Shown here: piece after piece, positions 49,853-58,763 of the stretch
Layout: each line of letters starts with the position of its first letter
How positions within the stretch are numbered: the first letter of the stretch is position 1
DNA from: Pontiella desulfatans
Lineage (GTDB): Bacteria; Verrucomicrobiota; Kiritimatiellia; Kiritimatiellales; Pontiellaceae
DNA: 64,000 bases
Reading direction: 5' to 3'
NCBI RefSeq assembly: GCF_900890425.1
Contig: NZ_CAAHFG010000004.1
Span: 242,798 to 306,797, forward strand
The notes under the pieces: model-generated
Database searches by the model: none
Told to the model about the DNA's origin: nothing
Seen by the model: only the letters and a program-made list of their open reading frames with translations
Program-made: the position numbers and the translations under genes

Positions 49853-52108
49853 TTATTTCATGGGACTCACCGCGGCCCCCATCAGATCCGCGAGTTTTAC
49901 CGCAAACGGAACCTTCGAGGCATAGCCGGTTTTCCAACCGGGAATGTCTGATAGCGCCCACTCATAAGCGTTCAGCGGATTTTTGACTCCAATTTCTGAA
50001 ATCTCATAAATCAGGTAATATGGGCGGCTGGGTTCCGACGGATATCCCCAGCCCACCAACGTTTCTTTCGAATACACTTTCGGCCCTTTGCTGACGATGC
50101 GGAACATCCGGCCCGACCGTTCATCGCCTTTCGTATGCAGGAGCAGATAGGAGGCTCCAACAACGTCCTGCTCCAGCAACAGAGAGCCGGATCCTTTATC
50201 TGCACGGCAGTTATACAGGCTGTTGCGGAAAATCCAGTCGAGATGATCCTGATCGCGGAAAGACGCGACCAGCACCGACGCTTCGGAAGGAGATGCCTGC
50301 CTTTCCGACGATCCATCATGTTGCTCGGGCAACGCTTCGCGCACGGCATCCGGCGGCTCATCCTTGTAGATGCGATAGGTATGATAGGTATGCTGTTCCC
50401 GCTGGGTCGCCCGGTTGCAGACGTGAGCCACCACCTCGTTCAGAAACCGCTCCAGTGCCGCCGATCCATCGTCCGAATCGTTGGGCCGCAGCGGAAACGC
50501 GCCGAGGCCGGGCAGTAGCTCATGGAAACCGCGAAACGGCATCTGTTCCTTTTCATTTCCAGGATAAAGCACATAGGCGCCCGCCGACCGGCGGATCGCA
50601 TCGCGATAGGCATGCATTTTTAGCAAGTCGGCGCGTTTATAGTTTCCGGTGCGTTGGGCGGCCTTTTCCTCGTCGAGGTTTTCGTCCACGGCACCGAAGA
50701 GTTTAACGAGACGGTCCACCTTGTATTTCGCATCGAAATGAACATGCGTGATCAGTTCCTGCTCTTCGGCCTGTGCCTGGGAAAAGCCCTCCGGCCAGAG
50801 CGACAGCGTATAATCCGGGCGCATCTGACGACTCCACGAACCCTGAGCCGGATATTGACTCGCACTGTTGAACGTCCGGTTATAGCTGAACTCGACCGAA
50901 AGCGGGCGGCCTGCGCCTCGGTAAATCCCTTCGATGGGCAGCTGCTTTCCTGCCTTCAGCTTCAGCACCAGATCCTTGTCGTTAATCAAATCTTCAACCG
51001 TTGGGTTTTTGAGCTCAAACAAACCAGACACCAGATCCAACAGCTTGAAAAACACCCAATATTCATAAAGCGCCGCCACATCGCGCTTGCCGCCTTCATA
51101 CACATCGTCGCCGCCGTCCCAGCTCAGCCGAGCCGCCAGCTCGAACAACATCCAGGCCCGCAGTACCTGGCGGTATCCCTCCTTGCGCTGAAGCACCGGA
51201 CTGTTAAGCGGCAGCAGCTCGGGTTGCGAAACCTGCTTGAACACATCGTGGGAAAGCGTTTCCTCCAGATCATCCATCAGCCCGTTGATTTCAGAACGGA
51301 GCCCCGGATATTTCTCGTCGCCCGCCGCGGAAAGCCTCGCGAGCAATTCTTCCAAGGTCTGGAGAAACAGGTTCAGTGCGTGTTTCACGAATCGGTTTTC
51401 CGGCGTATCCACCGTATCGCGCTTATCGCGGATTTCAATCCGCTCGGGAATCGTTTTCAGCGTATCGCGCAACGGATGCCCTGCGGGTACTTCCATGCGC
51501 CGCCCGTCCGCAGCAAACTGCCTCACCTCGTAACGACCGAGCCGACGGCTTTGCCGCACATCGATGGTCCGGAACTCCTCGCGCCACTGCGTATTCGGCT
51601 GGGAAACGATCCGCTGAACCGCCTGCTGGAAATCTTCGCCGCCCAGCAGGCTCTTCAGGAAATAGAGCCGTTGCGCCAGCGTGGCCTCCGTCAGGCCATC
51701 GGGAATCAGCGGCTGGTCCACCGGCGATTCCAGCTGCAGCAGAAAATCGGCGCAACGATCCGCAATGTTCTCCAGCATCGAGCGATATTCATCTTCATAG
51801 CCCAGCTTCGTCGAGCGGACATCGATGTGCATTCCGGAAACGGTTTCGCCGGTTGCCTGTTCTTCCAGCTCCAGCTTCAGCAAGCCGACATAATTGCCCG
51901 GCTCAATCAGACCGCGCTCGCTATCGTGCGCAATGCGGCTGTGAGACAAAACTCCGGCGATTTCTTTCACTGAATAGGAGGCCGAATCCAACTCATATTC
52001 GTATCGCCCGTTTTCGGTTAGCGATACAACCGGTTCGCCCGTTCGCGCCGAAACGATCCTCAGCCCAACGGGGGTGCCTGGAAAAACAACTGCCGCTTTA
52101 TTCACCAT
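49853..52108 (-). CDS. McrC-like DUF2357/PD-(D/E)XK nuclease subunit
   Basis: This 751-residue protein has a beta-rich N-terminal DUF2357-type region (1-120), a helical middle and a nuclease core. VAALYEYWVFFKL (345-357), RPDYTLSLWP (430-439) and HFDAKYKVD (457-465) supply the Asp...Asp-x-Lys signature of PD-(D/E)XK nucleases. LKMHAYRDAIR (496-506) is also typical. The C-terminal 140 residues (from about 610; ASYLLLHTKGDERSGRMFRI, YYLIYEISEI) form a separate domain that may read modified bases, an inference. The family pairs with McrB-like GTPases/ATPases in type IV-like restriction. It is the third gene of an operon with the McrB-like and RAYT-Smf genes. Confidence 0.85.
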   Translation of the reverse strand: MVNKAAVVFPGTPVGLRIVSARTGEPVVSLTENGRYEYELDSASYSVKEIAGVLSHSRIAHDSERGLIEPGNYVGLLKLELEEQATGETVSGMHIDVRSTKLGYEDEYRSMLENIADRCADFLLQLESPVDQPLIPDGLTEATLAQRLYFLKSLLGGEDFQQAVQRIVSQPNTQWREEFRTIDVRQSRRLGRYEVRQFAADGRRMEVPAGHPLRDTLKTIPERIEIRDKRDTVDTPENRFVKHALNLFLQTLEELLARLSAAGDEKYPGLRSEINGLMDDLEETLSHDVFKQVSQPELLPLNSPVLQRKEGYRQVLRAWMLFELAARLSWDGGDDVYEGGKRDVAALYEYWVFFKLLDLVSGLFELKNPTVEDLINDKDLVLKLKAGKQLPIEGIYRGAGRPLSVEFSYNRTFNSASQYPAQGSWSRQMRPDYTLSLWPEGFSQAQAEEQELITHVHFDAKYKVDRLVKLFGAVDENLDEEKAAQRTGNYKRADLLKMHAYRDAIRRSAGAYVLYPGNEKEQMPFRGFHELLPGLGAFPLRPNDSDDGSAALERFLNEVVAHVCNRATQREQHTYHTYRIYKDEPPDAVREALPEQHDGSSERQASPSEASVLVASFRDQDHLDWIFRNSLYNCRADKGSGSLLLEQDVVGASYLLLHTKGDERSGRMFRIVSKGPKVYSKETLVGWGYPSEPSRPYYLIYEISEIGVKNPLNAYEWALSDIPGWKTGYASKVPFAVKLADLMGAAVSPMK

Positions 52109-52147
52109 CCGTCAACGCACCCTTCATTTTTGCTGTTCGGCATAGAT

Positions 52148-53083
52148 TCACGCTTTGATTTTCTCCCACACACTCAACTCGTGGATCAAACGATCCAGCA
52201 TTCCGCCCGGCGTCACATGCGGTAGCCAAAGTTCATCCGCAGACTCCATCACAAACCGGTTCCGTTGCTCTGCCGCCGCCAAATCGCCATCCTGGTTGCG
52301 CATTTCCAGAATCAGCAGCCGATTCTCTTCCAGCGCCTCCCGCACCGCCGGCCGCTGTGCCGCCCGCTCCAAACCCCACGCCGGGCACCAGATAACCCGT
52401 TTTTTGCACGCCAGAAGCTTTTCAAACATCTCCTGCTCAAGCGGAGAATGGAATCCACTGAAATAGGTACTTGCCCCGGGGATGCTTTCCGGGCGCAGCG
52501 CACTCCGGCTGCACAAAACCCCCAGCTTCTTCGCATTCCACAGCACCGGATTCCCCAGCCCGCGCAAGCCGTTTCCAAAATCTGTGACACAACACCACGG
52601 ATTCATACGGATATACCCGGCAATCGCCTGCTCCGCCTCCGGCGTGCGCACGATCATCTCATAATAGTTGCGATGCCAGATGCGCATTTTTTCCGGCGCA
52701 CGCTCTCCATTCCGGGCGACAAGAATATCGCCCCTAGCCCGCAATGTGCGGGATACCCCCGCCTTAAACCCAGTGATCACATCCCCCAAACGGCCATAAC
52801 CACCCTCGATACGTATGATGGCATGAAAATGATCCGGCATAATCGCTCGCTCGCCCCACTCCATCCACGGCAAAAGACGTGCCGTCTTTTGCATTTCCTC
52901 TTCCATAATTTCCCGCACGGGCGGCATTATTGCCGCCCCGGTCGCCCCAAAAGGAAGCCTATTGGCCCACTCGACAAACTCCCGATGCGCGCATAGCGTC
53001 ACGAAATACACCCCGCCGCCGGCATAATCATGCCCCTTCAGCCGGATTGATCGCCGGTGATGAATTTCAGGATCGTAGCCCAC
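52148..53083 (-). CDS. REP-associated tyrosine transposase (RAYT) fused to DprA/Smf-like domain
   Basis: This 311-residue protein has two domains. Residues 1-180 are an IS200/RAYT-type Y1 transposase, with HRRSIRLKGHDYAGGGVYFVT, HUH motif MPDHFHA (His 85, His 87), and catalytic Tyr 140 in WHRNYYEMIVR. From about 190 (GVLCSR) a Rossmann-like domain follows with SGFHSPLEQEMFEKLLACKK, VIWCPAWGLE and AEQRNRFVMESADELWLPHV, which resembles the DprA/Smf/LOG nucleotide- or ssDNA-binding fold. It sits between the McrB- and McrC-like genes with gaps of only 36 and 39 bases, so it is part of the operon. Both catalytic motifs look intact. Confidence 0.8.
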   Translation of the reverse strand: MGYDPEIHHRRSIRLKGHDYAGGGVYFVTLCAHREFVEWANRLPFGATGAAIMPPVREIMEEEMQKTARLLPWMEWGERAIMPDHFHAIIRIEGGYGRLGDVITGFKAGVSRTLRARGDILVARNGERAPEKMRIWHRNYYEMIVRTPEAEQAIAGYIRMNPWCCVTDFGNGLRGLGNPVLWNAKKLGVLCSRSALRPESIPGASTYFSGFHSPLEQEMFEKLLACKKRVIWCPAWGLERAAQRPAVREALEENRLLILEMRNQDGDLAAAEQRNRFVMESADELWLPHVTPGGMLDRLIHELSVWEKIKA

Positions 53084-53119
53084 GCCGTTCCTCAGTCCTC
53101 TGTCTTCCGACCTCCGCCC

Positions 53120-55288
53120 CTACGCCTCCGCAAAGCTGGTGAAACCGTGCTCGGCCAGCCGCCTGCGCATGCGGGCCAGTTTTTCCAGCGAGCCCGGATA
53201 GAGGGCGTTTTCTGCCACCAGCACTTCATCCTTGATCGGATCGTTTTCCGGACGGGCGTCCTCCTTCAAGCAAAGCCGGATCAGGGCCGCCAAGACCGGA
53301 CCGAGCTTCTTTTTAGAGCCGTGCAACTTGGGCAGCAGCTTCTGCATGATCGCCGCATCCATGGCGGATTCCATTTTCCAATCCTTGGAAGAAAGCTCTT
53401 TGTGGAAATAGACTAAGCGGCAGATTTCATGCGCCGTGCGGTAACCGAATTCCGCGCCGGCTTCTTTCAGCTGCGGGAAAAACTCCATCAGCACCTTCGA
53501 CACCGCCTCACGGGTAGCGTCATCTAAAGGAACATCCTTCTGCTTCGCCGCCGCCACAAATGCTTTGGCATATTGCGCACCCTGCCCCTCTAGTTCTTTC
53601 AGATTGGGCTTCACCGGATTTTCAAGGAACGACTTCATTTCGTCGTCCGAAACCCGAAACTCAATCACATTGGCGCGATCCAGCACCTTCGGGCTGAACA
53701 TGTAGGTCGTTTCATCGACGTTAACCGTACCGATCACAAACAGGTTTTTCGGAATCTTCAGCTTCGCCGGAACCCCGTTCCAATCCTCGCCGGTATCATC
53801 ATGCAGACTAATCGCCTCGCCCGACTCCATCGCCGACAGAAAGTCCGCGAAATACCGTTCGACGTGCGACAGGTTCATCTCATCCAGAATCAGGAAATAA
53901 GGATGCTCCGGATCGGCCTGCGCCCGCAGAATCAAATCCAGCGCCCCGTTGTCCGGCTTGCGATAATGCCCGGGATTCAGCGCATCCGGATAGCCCAGCA
54001 GATTTTCATTGCTCGTCCAGTCCGCGCCGACAGAGATCAGTTCATATTTAGATTCTATTTTTTCCAGTGTTGCGTTTTCAATCCAGTGACATGCCAGCGC
54101 TTTTAGCGGAGCATGAAACGAATTAAGGGTTGGGCTATATTCCAAGCCTGTCTCTATAACCTTCCGCTGAATCTCTTGTGATGGTGTTGCAAGGTCAAAG
54201 CCATTTTCCTTAATGGACTCAACCCACTTCTCAACCAAATCAAAGGGTAAAAATGTATTGGAACTACTGCCGCTCTGCCCGACCTTAACCCCTAAACGAT
54301 CAACATCTAAAACTGTATATATTGATCTGGCGGCATTCACCTCCATTCCTTTAAGAAAAGGGTTACGCACACCTCTCCTTCCAGTAATCCATTTTGAAAG
54401 TGCCTGCGCCAACTGCGTTTTCCCTGAACCCGACAGGCCGGTGAGAATAAGAAACGGTTTTGCGTGAAGAGCCGAACAAACCATCGTCGGCAACGAGGCA
54501 TTTACCGCTAGCCCCGCACCATCGAGTGCAGTAGAAAATGCATCCATAGAAAACGGCATTGATTTAATGGAGGTAGATAATGCCTTTCCCTGTTGTATGC
54601 TCATTTTATTCTGCTGATGTTCCATGTATTCAAAAAGCAACCATGGGAAAAGACTAAGCCATCCTTCGGGGAGACCTCCCCGGTCAATATTATACAGCTC
54701 TTTCATTAAAAAGATGTTGCGTGACAGCCAAGAATCCCCCGAGTGCGGCGGCTCATACTTCGCTATTATCTGTTCACTCTGGAGCCATGCAAAAAGCCTA
54801 TTAAACTTTCCTTCGTCCACCACCGTAGACAGCTCTGCGGGGGCACATGCGGCAAAAATTCGATTAATCAGAACCCGGTTATGCTTCACACTTGGCTGAT
54901 TTACCCACCATTCATTGAATCTGAAAAACAGCTCATTATTCAGTGGGTTAACTATGATTTCCCTGAGAAACTTTTCAAACTGTGGAGCTTCCCTAAATTG
55001 AGCTAAATGCTCTCGGCTGATAACAGACTGCCCCCGAGAGGCTATTCCATTTAGAAGTTCTCCAACTAGCTTCCAAACGAAGCCCTCGAATGACTGGTCA
55101 GACAAAGATTCCAATCCGGCATACAAGCGATAGTCTGACAACTTGCCCGCCTTAAGCTGGAGCCTTTCCCTAATTTCCTGAATGTCTTTAGTAAAGTGAT
55201 TGTAATTCTCAAACCACTCCGACACCCGGTCTTCAGGAGTAGCCAACAGTTCATCAAACAGCTTTTGACGCATCTCTTTCATAATCAT
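53120..55288 (-). CDS. McrB-like AAA+ NTPase
   Basis: This protein is 722 residues long. A helical N-terminal region (1-260) without recognised motifs probably binds target or partner. The AAA+ core has Walker A GLSGSGKT (284-291), a long insert, Walker B FLILDEMN (465-472), then the McrB signature TVNVDETTYMFSPKVLDRAN (521-540, sensor and NxxD-type element). The insert carries VGADWTSNENLLGYPDALNP, typical of McrB-like partners of DUF2357 nucleases. It should power translocation or assembly of the nuclease at foreign or modified nucleic acid. It is the first gene of the operon. A second ATG two codons later is an equal start candidate. Confidence 0.9.
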   Translation of the reverse strand: MIMKEMRQKLFDELLATPEDRVSEWFENYNHFTKDIQEIRERLQLKAGKLSDYRLYAGLESLSDQSFEGFVWKLVGELLNGIASRGQSVISREHLAQFREAPQFEKFLREIIVNPLNNELFFRFNEWWVNQPSVKHNRVLINRIFAACAPAELSTVVDEGKFNRLFAWLQSEQIIAKYEPPHSGDSWLSRNIFLMKELYNIDRGGLPEGWLSLFPWLLFEYMEHQQNKMSIQQGKALSTSIKSMPFSMDAFSTALDGAGLAVNASLPTMVCSALHAKPFLILTGLSGSGKTQLAQALSKWITGRRGVRNPFLKGMEVNAARSIYTVLDVDRLGVKVGQSGSSSNTFLPFDLVEKWVESIKENGFDLATPSQEIQRKVIETGLEYSPTLNSFHAPLKALACHWIENATLEKIESKYELISVGADWTSNENLLGYPDALNPGHYRKPDNGALDLILRAQADPEHPYFLILDEMNLSHVERYFADFLSAMESGEAISLHDDTGEDWNGVPAKLKIPKNLFVIGTVNVDETTYMFSPKVLDRANVIEFRVSDDEMKSFLENPVKPNLKELEGQGAQYAKAFVAAAKQKDVPLDDATREAVSKVLMEFFPQLKEAGAEFGYRTAHEICRLVYFHKELSSKDWKMESAMDAAIMQKLLPKLHGSKKKLGPVLAALIRLCLKEDARPENDPIKDEVLVAENALYPGSLEKLARMRRRLAEHGFTSFAEA

Positions 55289-55527: not shown

Positions 55528-55935
55528 CTATTGCTTCAGCCAAACGATCGCCTTCAACGAGACTTCCAACGGCTGGAACTCCGGATCGCCGGTAACCAGC
55601 TCGGCTTTTTTTATTTGGGTTAGTGACGCGGCGTAGGCATCGGCCAATGACATTCTGTATGCCGCCTTGAATTCGGCCGCCTGCTCGGTAAGCACCGGAT
55701 CGGTTTCAACAATTTCAATGGGGAAATCCTTTAGCGACGTCTGAACCTGCTTCCATGCGGCAAGGTTCCGTTTACGGATCACCTTGTATCCCACCTCAGC
55801 CCAATTCACAGAACAGATGAAGAGCCGTTTTTTATCTTCGAGTGATTTCGCAAAATAGTCCCGGACGATATCCGCACCGGCTTCATTCCGAAGAAATGAG
55901 ATGATTGCAAAACTGTCGAGCACTGCATTCTTCAT
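55528..55935 (-). CDS. PIN-domain toxin (VapC-like)
   Basis: This 135-residue protein starts at MKNAVLDSFAIISFLRNEAG, one base after the antitoxin stop, with GGAGGGG upstream. PIN-domain acidic residues are visible in VLDSFAI (Asp), VNWAEVGY (Glu) and MSLADAYAASL (Asp). The final motif VTGDPEFQPLE supplies the last Asp. VapC-type toxins are RNases that cleave tRNA or rRNA when the antitoxin is lost. Length is typical (about 130). An in-frame extension to 56085 overlaps the antitoxin and is rejected. Confidence 0.9.
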   Translation of the reverse strand: MKNAVLDSFAIISFLRNEAGADIVRDYFAKSLEDKKRLFICSVNWAEVGYKVIRKRNLAAWKQVQTSLKDFPIEIVETDPVLTEQAAEFKAAYRMSLADAYAASLTQIKKAELVTGDPEFQPLEVSLKAIVWLKQ

Positions 55936-55936
55936 C

Positions 55937-56179
55937 CTACCCCTCCTTCGCAACTTCCTCTGCGTGCTCCTGCACAATCTCTTCCGACCAGTTTTCACCG
56001 TCATCTCCGGAAAGCATGCCCTGGAGCGATCCGATATAGGCTTCTGTGATCGGGCGGATAACAATCGTGTTGTTCTTTTCATCAAACACCAGACGGGTAC
56101 CCGGCTTGATCCCTAGCTTCCTCCGGAGTTTAGCAGGAATAACCACCTGCCCTTTTGTCGTTACGATTCCAGTATCCAT
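55937..56179 (-). CDS. AbrB/SpoVT-family antitoxin (VapB-like)
   Basis: This 80-residue protein has an N-terminal AbrB/MazE-type swapped-hairpin DNA-binding domain (GIVTTKGQVVIPAKLRRKLG, IKPGTRLVFDEKNNTIVIRP). A C-terminal helix rich in Glu probably wraps the toxin. It is translated just ahead of the PIN toxin and should repress the pair's own promoter, which lies in the AT-rich region 56180-56280. GGAGG is placed correctly before the ATG. Confidence 0.9.
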   Translation of the reverse strand: MDTGIVTTKGQVVIPAKLRRKLGIKPGTRLVFDEKNNTIVIRPITEAYIGSLQGMLSGDDGENWSEEIVQEHAEEVAKEG

Positions 56180-56734: not shown

Positions 56735-56873
56735 AGCACCTACATTTGGAACACTGTTCTAAACACGATACTTACGATATTTTAGGCAACTATATATGCA
56801 ACCATTATGCAACGGATCTTGATTTTCAACTGACACCCCTATACGTTGGTTGGACTTTTCAAGGAGCATTATT

Positions 56874-58172
56874 ATGAGTAAAGAGAAGCCGAATATCAAA
56901 AATGATGGATATGAAATCCATGCCGGATATCGTATCAGGTTACTGAACTCCAAATCCGGAAAAAGGTACCAGGTAGACCTCGGTCGCTCCACAGGTAAAC
57001 ACATTCGCCTTTCCTTCGAAACACTGAAGGCAGCCCGCAACTGCGCCTTTGAAAAGAGCAATGAGAAGAAAAATCATGGGGTCAAAGTTCTGGGGTTCAC
57101 GGACAAACAGAGGAATGATGCTGTTACCGCCCTTAAGATTTTGAACTCTTTTGGCATAAACCTTCGCGAGGCTGCCAACTTCTATGCAAAGCACAACCAG
57201 ATTGTAGACCATACGAACGGCACAGGACAGCTTGTTAAACGTTACCTTGAATCCCAGAAACAGCGGATGCAGGCTAATGAGTTACGTGAGCGCTCCTACA
57301 ACGAGTGTGAAAAACATCTTAAGAAGTTTCGGGGTTCAATGGAGACAATGGCGGTAGACACCATCACAGCCGACGATATCGATGAATGGCTCGACAGACA
57401 GAACTTCGGTGCTACCAGCCGGAATAATCACCGGCGTTATATCAGTGGCTTCTTTAACTGGTGCCTGGAGCAGAGCAAAATTGCCGCCAACCCCGTTCTA
57501 CGCACTCGGAAGGTTAAGAAGGCCAGCCACACACCAGAAATTTATACAACGAAAGATACTGAGACCATCATGAAGGCGTGCGAACAGTTCGTGGCATCAA
57601 CCGTGAGGGCTGCTGACGGGAAAAAACTCGCTATCCGGAAAGTCAAAGTAGAGGGAAAAATGGTCGTGCCAGACAAGAAAACCCTTATTCCATATATGGC
57701 TCTAGCCTTCTTTGCGGGTATACGCCCCAACGAAATCACTCGACTAAAATGGAAGGATATCGACCTGCAGATGGATGAGATCCATGTAAATGCTGACACC
57801 TCTAAGACTTCAACGGCCCGCATTGTTCATATATCGGCCAATCTCAAGAAGTGGCTCATCCCATATCGGGGTGATAGCTCCATGCTGATATACCCCTATT
57901 CCGACACCGTGCTCCGAAGCTGGCGCCGGGCCATCTTTAAAGAACTCGATATTAAATACATCCAGGATGGTGCCCGGCACTCGTTCGCCACCTACTATCT
58001 GGCCTTAAACTCGATGGACGACACGATTCAGGAGTTGGGACACACGGATACCAAGATGCTGTTTAAGCATTATCGTGGCTTAGCGAAAAACCGGAAAAAT
58101 CAGGCCAAGGAATACTTCAAGATTGCACCCGCGAAGAACGCGAAGGTCATCCAGATCTCAAAAGCGGTCTAG
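56874..58172 (+). CDS. Tyrosine-type site-specific integrase
   Basis: This protein is 432 residues long. ATG 56874 is preferred (AAGGAG nine bases upstream) over TTG 56850. An N-terminal SAM-like core-binding domain is followed by the catalytic domain with Arg in GIRPNEITRLKWKDIDL. GARHSFATYY supplies the second Arg and His, LGHTDTKMLFKHYRG the last His and the nucleophile Tyr. It should integrate and excise its element at the adjacent tRNA-Lys site. The frame ends 28 bases before a convergent helix-turn-helix gene. Confidence 0.93.
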   Translation: MSKEKPNIKNDGYEIHAGYRIRLLNSKSGKRYQVDLGRSTGKHIRLSFETLKAARNCAFEKSNEKKNHGVKVLGFTDKQRNDAVTALKILNSFGINLREAANFYAKHNQIVDHTNGTGQLVKRYLESQKQRMQANELRERSYNECEKHLKKFRGSMETMAVDTITADDIDEWLDRQNFGATSRNNHRRYISGFFNWCLEQSKIAANPVLRTRKVKKASHTPEIYTTKDTETIMKACEQFVASTVRAADGKKLAIRKVKVEGKMVVPDKKTLIPYMALAFFAGIRPNEITRLKWKDIDLQMDEIHVNADTSKTSTARIVHISANLKKWLIPYRGDSSMLIYPYSDTVLRSWRRAIFKELDIKYIQDGARHSFATYYLALNSMDDTIQELGHTDTKMLFKHYRGLAKNRKNQAKEYFKIAPAKNAKVIQISKAV

Positions 58173-58199
58173 ATACCCGCCACATACGGCAATACAAAA

Positions 58200-58763
58200 C
58201 TAAGCGGCCAACTCCCTCAACCATTCCCGCTCAGCCCGTTGCTTTACTCTTTCCGCCTCCGCTCGCCGCTTATCCATATCCACTTCATAAGGATTTTCGG
58301 GAGGATCTTCAGGCAGCTCGAACTCCTTCTTGTTGAAGACGCTATCGATTAGCTTGTCGTACCAATACCTTACAGCGGACATGGACAGATCCAGACCATG
58401 CCTTTCCCTCAGCCACACCTGTATATTTTCACTACCGTTGACCAAGCCAAATGAGAGATGGCCCAGCAGGTCTTCGACAACCTCGGGGGTGAGTGCGGGT
58501 TTGCGGTCGCGCTTGTAGTTATTCTGCACCAGCTCTAGGGGGCCGCCCTCGTTCCATTGCCTAACCCAATTCGTCACACTCGATGCACTACAGCCAACCA
58601 GCTTGGAAATTTCATGGGTTGAGTACTTCCCAGAGAAGGCATACAGGATAACCTGAAGCCTTCGGCGGGCCTTCTTATCCTTCAGGTGATTGGCGTCGTC
58701 AATCATGTCCAGAATGTCTTCACGGGAATAGATAGTGGAGGTAATTTTAAGTCTCGGTCTCAT
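58200..58763 (-). CDS. Helix-turn-helix DNA-binding protein of the integrated element
   Basis: This 187-residue protein has an N-terminal transposase-like helix-turn-helix (RLQVILYAFSGKYSTHEISK, LVGCSASSVTNWVRQW) and a second winged-helix-like part (ALTPEVVEDLLGHLSFG, WLRERHGLDLSMSAVRYWYD), as in IS630 or Tc1-type N termini. The DDE catalytic part is missing. The tail is instead charged and helical (DMDKRRAEAERVKQRAEREW). It is likely a regulator or small DNA-packaging-type protein rather than a transposase. It is divergent from the next gene, whose possible start codon is one base away. Confidence 0.65.
   Translation of the reverse strand: MRPRLKITSTIYSREDILDMIDDANHLKDKKARRRLQVILYAFSGKYSTHEISKLVGCSASSVTNWVRQWNEGGPLELVQNNYKRDRKPALTPEVVEDLLGHLSFGLVNGSENIQVWLRERHGLDLSMSAVRYWYDKLIDSVFNKKEFELPEDPPENPYEVDMDKRRAEAERVKQRAEREWLRELAA

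Follow-up and report, generated by a model that had tools for sequence, protein, structure and literature searches.

According to earlier reports, REP-associated tyrosine transposases (RAYTs, TnpAREP) occur as single copies, are inherited vertically and have REPs on their flanks (PMC8049555, PMC6006769). Canonical REPs carry a GT[AG]G foot (PMC6006769), and the host role of RAYTs was reported as unknown (PMC8049555). The Y1 classification of Quentin et al. (2018, PMC6006769) contains TnpAY1 subclasses with large C-terminal extensions; these were described as not REP-associated, and neither DprA nor restriction is mentioned in that classification. Type IV restriction systems of the DUF2357 McrBC kind (CoCoNuTs survey, PMC11090510; PADLOC PDC-M26) consist of an AAA+ gene followed by a gene encoding DUF2357 and a PD-(D/E)XK nuclease, and the text of the survey does not mention transposases, DUF1016, AbiE or Schlafen. 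A gene embedded between restriction subunit genes to which it is unrelated is known from the EcoprrI type Ic operon: its product, the anticodon nuclease PrrC, has been shown to act as a guard (PMC3874165).

The locus described here lies in a 64,000-nucleotide stretch of DNA (the window) from an 8.66 Mb genome that is closely related by sequence to Pontiella and other Kiritimatiellota. It shares the gene order of the DUF2357 McrBC systems but differs from them by an extra RAYT gene between the two genes. This gene resembles RAYTs in its HUH/Tyr core, in its match to NF047646 (below the cut-off of this model), in the match of its family profile to 4ER8 and in its GTAG-footed REP hairpins, and resembles the extended TnpAY1 subclasses in combining a Y1 HUH core with a conserved C-terminal domain. 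In contrast to the reported RAYTs, the family to which it belongs is multi-copy and intra-operonic, has a DprA-like domain fused to the transposase and carries its REPs within the gene. The embedded position is reminiscent of PrrC, but the guard function is PrrC's, any function of RAYT-DprA being putative. No description of a RAYT associated with restriction, or of a DprA-transposase fusion, was found in the open-access literature, nor was the repeated settling of RAYT relatives in unrelated defence operons found described as a pattern.

The three-gene locus and its middle protein

According to the original prediction, a RAYT-DprA/Smf fusion gene lies between an McrB-like AAA+ gene and a DUF2357 gene, the three genes being read from the minus strand and separated by 36 and 39 nt. 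Open reading frames and sequence agree exactly with this arrangement (Table 1); the span 52108-53120 that had been given for the fusion gene is that of the inner ends of its neighbours, the placement being right and the gene proper somewhat shorter. An AAA+ motor gene adjoining a DUF2357 plus PD-(D/E)XK nuclease gene identifies an McrBC-like pair, and such pairs were found at 61 loci; the AAA+ protein of the window itself matched the McrB model weakly and AAA_5 below the cut-off. Neither target-site duplications nor terminal repeats were detected at the window junctions of the RAYT-DprA gene. Target duplications are not expected in HUH Y1 transposition, as established for IS200/IS605. The AAA+ gene is directly preceded, in the same orientation, by a pair of genes for a MazE-type antitoxin and a PIN-domain toxin (VapBC-like; 55528-56179), past which a tyrosine recombinase (plus strand) and a helix-turn-helix protein (minus strand) are encoded (56850-58763). 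No tRNA gene was found within the 64-kb window.

Table 1. Position of the genes, junctions, domains and palindromes of the locus (window coordinates)
Feature	Position	Strand	Evidence
McrB-like AAA+ ATPase gene (722 aa)	53120..55288	-	PADLOC candidate PDC-M26A, E=1.6e-41
McrB-RAYT junction, 36 nt	53084..53119		sequence
RAYT-DprA-like fusion gene (311 aa, GTG start)	52148..53083	-	ORF; NF047646 E=7e-13
HUH/Y1 transposase domain (~residues 14-163)	52595..53044	-	alignment; profile vs TnpAREP 4ER8, E=3.7e-7
In-frame REP-like palindrome 1, GGGCGGCAATAATGCCGCCC, residues 49-55	52919..52938	-	perfect match; RNA hairpin centroid -17.5 kcal/mol
HUH motif H85-F86-H87	52823..52831	-	H85 and H87 invariant in 22 homologues
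In-frame REP-like palindrome 2, GGGCGATATTCTTGTCGCCC, residues 117-124	52714..52733	-	one mismatch; hairpin -14.4 kcal/mol
Catalytic Tyr157 (motif YIRMNP)	52613..52615	-	invariant in 22 homologues
DprA/Smf-like domain (~residues 176-303)	52175..52558	-	family profile vs DprA 3UQZ, E=0.0016; stand-alone relative 37% identical
RAYT-McrC junction, 39 nt	52109..52147		sequence
McrC-like gene, DUF2357 + PD-(D/E)XK nuclease (751 aa)	49853..52108	-	PF09823 2.5e-43; PF04411 (PDDEXK_7) 1.3e-26

The HUH motif and the catalytic tyrosine had been predicted to be intact. This was borne out by 22 aligned homologues, in which both histidines, the tyrosine and N161-P162 were invariant and F86 was replaced by V or M in a few cases. 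In having an HUH motif and a single catalytic Tyr in the Y1 fold, the protein conforms to RAYT/TnpAREP. The score of the window protein with the NCBIfam model NF047646 (REP-associated tyrosine transposase) was 48.6 bits, the cut-off being 80, all 22 homologues matched this model at E<=1, and the match of the middle protein to Pfam Y1_Tnp was weak (E=0.011).

A profile built from the 22 homologues matched TnpAREP 4ER8 with its first half and DprA 3UQZ with its second half (profile positions 163-280); it is through this family profile that the DprA match was obtained, the window protein alone being below the Pfam model PF02481 (DprA/Smf). Short stand-alone proteins in related genomes are homologous to residues 206-303 of the fusion. 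One of them was compared directly with these residues, which gave the identity listed in Table 1, and PF02481 was matched by this protein and by three others, one of the four at 3e-12. These matches support the view that the C-terminal half is Smf/DprA-like in kind, and to that extent the predicted fusion was right. In an AlphaFold model made from five sequences (mean pLDDT 52) the HUH core alone was believable, the C-terminal fold being unreliable. Stand-alone DprA-like proteins related to the RAYT C-terminus were seen beside genes for a KAP NTPase (L230, 2846-3460), for DarT-DarG (L232, 2423-2881) and for a type IIG R-M enzyme and Bro-N (L235, 3467-3931).

The two REP-like palindromes of the middle gene are read in frame. 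Homologues have such palindromes at the same places in the protein, for the most part at residues 49-55 and 117-124 (numbered as in the window protein), and in constant frames. RAYT genes totalling 52 kb contained 36 copies of the motif GGGCGRCA-n4-TGYCGCCC and their flanks, 542 kb in all, contained 7, which corresponds to a 54-fold enrichment in the gene. The REP form is GTAG-GGGCGACA-n4-TGTCGCCC-GTAC; in many cases the stem is preceded by GTAG and followed by GTAC. The family is thus associated with GT[AG]G-footed REPs, the hairpins lying mostly within the gene and not flanking it, and the comparison shows that it carries predicted REP hairpins in frame within its own coding region. In the 64 kb no site within one mismatch of the palindrome was detected besides the two in the window gene; the whole genome has six perfect sites, two of them within RAYT genes. 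Compared with shuffled sequences the window hairpins had a z of about -1.5, which makes them just moderately unusual, and many operonic RAYT copies, e.g. L138, L140 and L141, are without REPs. Palindromes inserted in frame into coding sequence are known from the Rickettsia palindromic elements; the palindromes of the fusion genes differ from these in being REPs within the gene of the presumed cognate transposase.

The McrB-McrC junction in related genomes

Scanning genome contigs with the DUF2357 protein yielded 67 loci, 61 of which had an upstream AAA+ partner. About 40 of these pairs were directly adjacent, without a middle gene, and 17 had a middle gene of at least 100 aa. In the close relatives L063 (68% identical) and L064 (65%) the AAA+ and DUF2357 genes are 6 nt apart. 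Elsewhere, according to Pfam, the slot contains DUF3800 (L062), DUF6088 and AbiEii (L065), DUF1016/YhcG (L086, L090) or Schlafen AlbA_2 with HATPase (L087, L094, L113). Genes of the DUF1016/YhcG or Schlafen AlbA_2 type were often seen at Bacteroidales junctions (L086, L087, L090, L091, L094, L095, L097-L099, L104, L108, L110, L113 and L115), DUF1016 being truncated to 122 aa in L097 and L099.

In Pontiella sulfatireligans the same slot is occupied by a distant RAYT, 29% identical to that of the window, and is followed by a second, degraded unit composed of an AAA+ tail, a RAYT and a DUF2357 head. The second RAYT is preceded by the exact AAA+ tail/RAYT start junction in six tandem copies of 121 bp (L060, 13098-13834), each of them containing the palindrome CCCGCTGTAGCGGG. 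Another Pontiellaceae genome, G035, has a complete DUF2357 gene with an AlbA_2-type tail upstream (read by eye) and, downstream, Vsr and the remnants of a second unit (McrB tail/RAYT-A/McrC head). The RAYT in this remnant unit is the closest relative of the window RAYT (74-81% identical); it is broken around codon 116, at a REP site, at two contig ends. Taken together, the alternative middle genes, the empty junctions and the RAYTs of P. sulfatireligans and G035 indicate that the slot is a place for cargo, which RAYTs have entered at least twice. The short gaps, which had been thought to argue against passive insertion, do not speak for a designed three-gene unit, since many relatives of the fusion gene lie no more than 50 nt behind a stop codon, including those of non-defence genes, and since HUH Y1 transposition is not expected to duplicate its target (see above).

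Neighbourhoods and evolution of the fusion family

The fusion family was present in 24 of 40 related genomes and the DUF2357 gene in 5 of the 40. Besides the window copy, the source genome contains two full ones (65-66% identical), which makes three in all, and fragments; with at least 65% identity among full copies and a scattered tree (see below), the family does not conform to the single-copy, vertical inheritance reported for RAYTs. Viral contigs yielded no relative in a single-protein scan and one distant RAYT in a profile scan, and in plasmid records there was one distant partial match.

Ten key neighbours were confirmed by Pfam, including HsdR, HsdM, C5-MTase, AlbA_2, RAMP (Cmr1), Card1, GmrSD and Eco57I; most calls beyond this set were read from sequence by eye, and many of the contigs sampled were MAG fragments. 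The gene orders at type I loci were hsdS-x-RAYT-hsdR (L055, L056), hsdM-hsdS-RAYT-hsdR (L138), hsdR-RAYT-hsdS-hsdM (L140, L141), hsdM-AlbA_2-RAYT-hsdS-hsdR (L177) and AlbA_2-RAYT-hsdS (L127). In a type III-B CRISPR context the order cmr6-cmr1-RAYT-card1 was found in L200, and further cmr1-RAYT junctions in L144, L145 and L204. Other pairs were GmrSD-RAYT (L188), type IIG-RAYT (L190), HNH-RAYT (L052) and RhuM-RAYT (L201). The copies in defence loci were nearly all co-directional with the operon, the one antiparallel case being the RAYT between hsdS and hsdR in L170. About half of the fusion copies adjoin unrelated genes, such as those for an ECF sigma factor, NUDIX, TonB or HAD proteins. As so many copies have no recognised defence neighbour, 'defence' may partly mean 'permissive operon'.

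Some loci had further peculiarities. A diverged hsdS start is duplicated in L127 (2170-3787), one on either side of the RAYT, and a diverged repeat of the HNH tail follows the RAYT in L052. In a type I R-M locus of the source genome (L210, 3732-12980), hsdS is separated from hsdM by patatin-like and metallo-hydrolase-like genes (by eye), and hsdR contains a REP palindrome.

HsdS (PF01420) positions in the 40 genomes were compared with 65 fusion places and, as a control, with 90 places of non-fusion RAYTs in the same genomes. A distance of at most 2.5 kb from HsdS was found for eleven of the 65 fusion places and for none of the 90 non-fusion places (Fisher p=4e-5; 0.41% expected by chance); among the 65 there are fragments, and some places match the C-terminal domain only, by which the fusion rate is diluted, not inflated. 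Expressed the other way, 11 of 70 HsdS clusters contained a fusion RAYT. In a separate sample of the phylum 9/31 loci were at most 2.5 kb from a restriction gene, or 8/30 once L184 and L199, the halves of one gene, were merged; L188 and L190 of this sample were matched by their own sequence as seed, yet their neighbours are Pfam-verified. Both samples bear out the claim that more than random insertion is involved, and the enrichment over the non-fusion RAYT control rejects insertion without preference. Chance insertion had been expected to reveal itself by close relatives in which the AAA+/DUF2357 pair is adjacent without the middle gene, and by fusion copies at random loci. The former was found (see above); the latter was not, because a strong excess of fusion copies was seen in defence operons, and this in many types of them.

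In a tree of 53 copies the defence-associated ones were scattered, with 14 changes between the defence and the non-defence state, at least 11 of which are forced by strongly supported branches. The hsd operons of L140 and L141 are orthologous (HsdR 89% identical, equal dS), yet the RAYTs that they contain at the same site fall into different subclades. As read from these comparisons, the distribution requires that the fusion family entered defence operons many separate times. Pairwise dN/dS was about 0.20 for the C-terminal half of the window and G035 copies and 0.27 for L140/L141; such values mean that the copies are constrained and, by this measure, show them to persist under purifying selection. 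L055 and L056 were also considered as orthologous operons, but the divergence of their RAYTs (69% identity) and HsdRs (94.5%) was too unequal, which makes recombination or replacement likely. Relics and internally deleted RAYT copies occur as well. MITE-like copies reduced to some 36 codons at the N-terminal and 30 at the C-terminal end were seen in two genomes (L207, 5297-5538; L206, 2344-2583).

Possible roles of the middle gene

We consider it probable that the middle gene is operon cargo, recurrent in defence operons, and not an intrinsic McrBC subunit, and we lean towards a mobile hitch-hiker. The multi-copy RAYT-DprA family of Kiritimatiellota and related members of the phylum settles repeatedly directly behind stop codons in co-directional operons, defence operons being strongly over-represented among the settling sites, and the window copy occupies the McrB-McrC cargo slot. 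There the gene would be expressed by read-through from the defence operon. The conserved motifs and the cognate-looking REPs suggest that the HUH/Tyr domain may nick ssDNA at GTAG-tagged REP hairpins, like TnpAREP, and the DprA-like domain may bind ssDNA or a nucleotide. The scattered phylogeny, the replacement at orthologous sites and the relics point to copies that move or are exchanged between operon slots. A hitch-hiker would survive best in defence operons because such operons are often exchanged and tolerate cargo. A point against a pure hitch-hiker is that the copies in defence loci are nearly all co-directional with the operon, which hitch-hiking does not need, and a benefit of RAYT-DprA to defence is possible.

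Rather unlikely, but next in order, is that the gene encodes an accessory effector, an embedded back-up that comes into action upon engagement or inhibition of the host system, for which PrrC in EcoprrI is an established precedent (PMC3874165). Sensing of ssDNA or nucleotides would fall to the DprA-like part, and nicking of replicating phage DNA to the HUH domain. Consistent with this, RAYT-DprA is present in at least five unrelated defence types, slots that it uses also house abortive or toxin-antitoxin genes, known or candidate (AbiEii, DUF1016, AlbA_2, RhuM), stand-alone homologues of its DprA-like part occur beside DarTG, type IIG/Bro-N and KAP NTPase genes, and purifying selection goes together with invariant catalytic residues. 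However, half of the copies lie elsewhere than in defence operons, the multi-copy state, the relics and the turnover of slots resemble a mobile gene, and the phylogeny contains no single domesticated defence clade. The more general proposal, in which RAYT-DprA is a new class of accessory defence effectors, combining an HUH nickase and a DprA-like sensor with REP recognition hairpins within the reading frame and captured many times by type I, IIG and IV restriction and type III CRISPR operons of Kiritimatiellota, is put forward as a doubtful one.

It is improbable that the gene serves as an expression attenuator, in which the in-frame REP hairpins would make the RAYT cistron polar and lower or delay the synthesis of the downstream nuclease, with the RAYT binding its own hairpins in autoregulation. 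The two predicted, moderately unusual hairpins in the transcript between McrB and McrC, the concentration of REPs within RAYT genes and the position of the RAYT ahead of the nuclease or R subunit in several operons would fit such a role, but many operonic copies are without REPs (see above) and gene orders vary. A pure chance insertion into a defence operon, without preference, is highly improbable: the family is dispersed, about half of its copies are elsewhere and L170 is antiparallel, but the association with HsdS far exceeds the expectation and was replicated in the independent set, and almost all copies are co-directional. Least credible is the dedicated third subunit of the original prediction, with RAYT nicking as part of the restriction reaction, which has in its favour the exact placement with short gaps, the two RAYT lineages at the same junction and the related locus that keeps the arrangement as a remnant, but which the comparison of slots rejects, the middle gene not being conserved with the pair: about 40 of 61 pairs, among them the closest outgroups L063 and L064 with their 6-nt junction, are without it, unrelated genes occupy the slot, and RAYTs of P. 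sulfatireligans and G035 have only remnants of McrBC neighbours (the G035 copy being broken at a contig end).

The comparison documents the McrB-McrC junction as a slot for cargo that can be likened to the embedded genes known from type I R-M operons. It also documents the storage of REPs, in frame, within a transposase gene, which is unusual. If RAYT-DprA did prove to be a class of accessory effectors, RAYTs would gain a testable role in phage defence. A RAYT lineage that dwells in restriction and CRISPR operons makes the question whether RAYTs serve defence directly testable.
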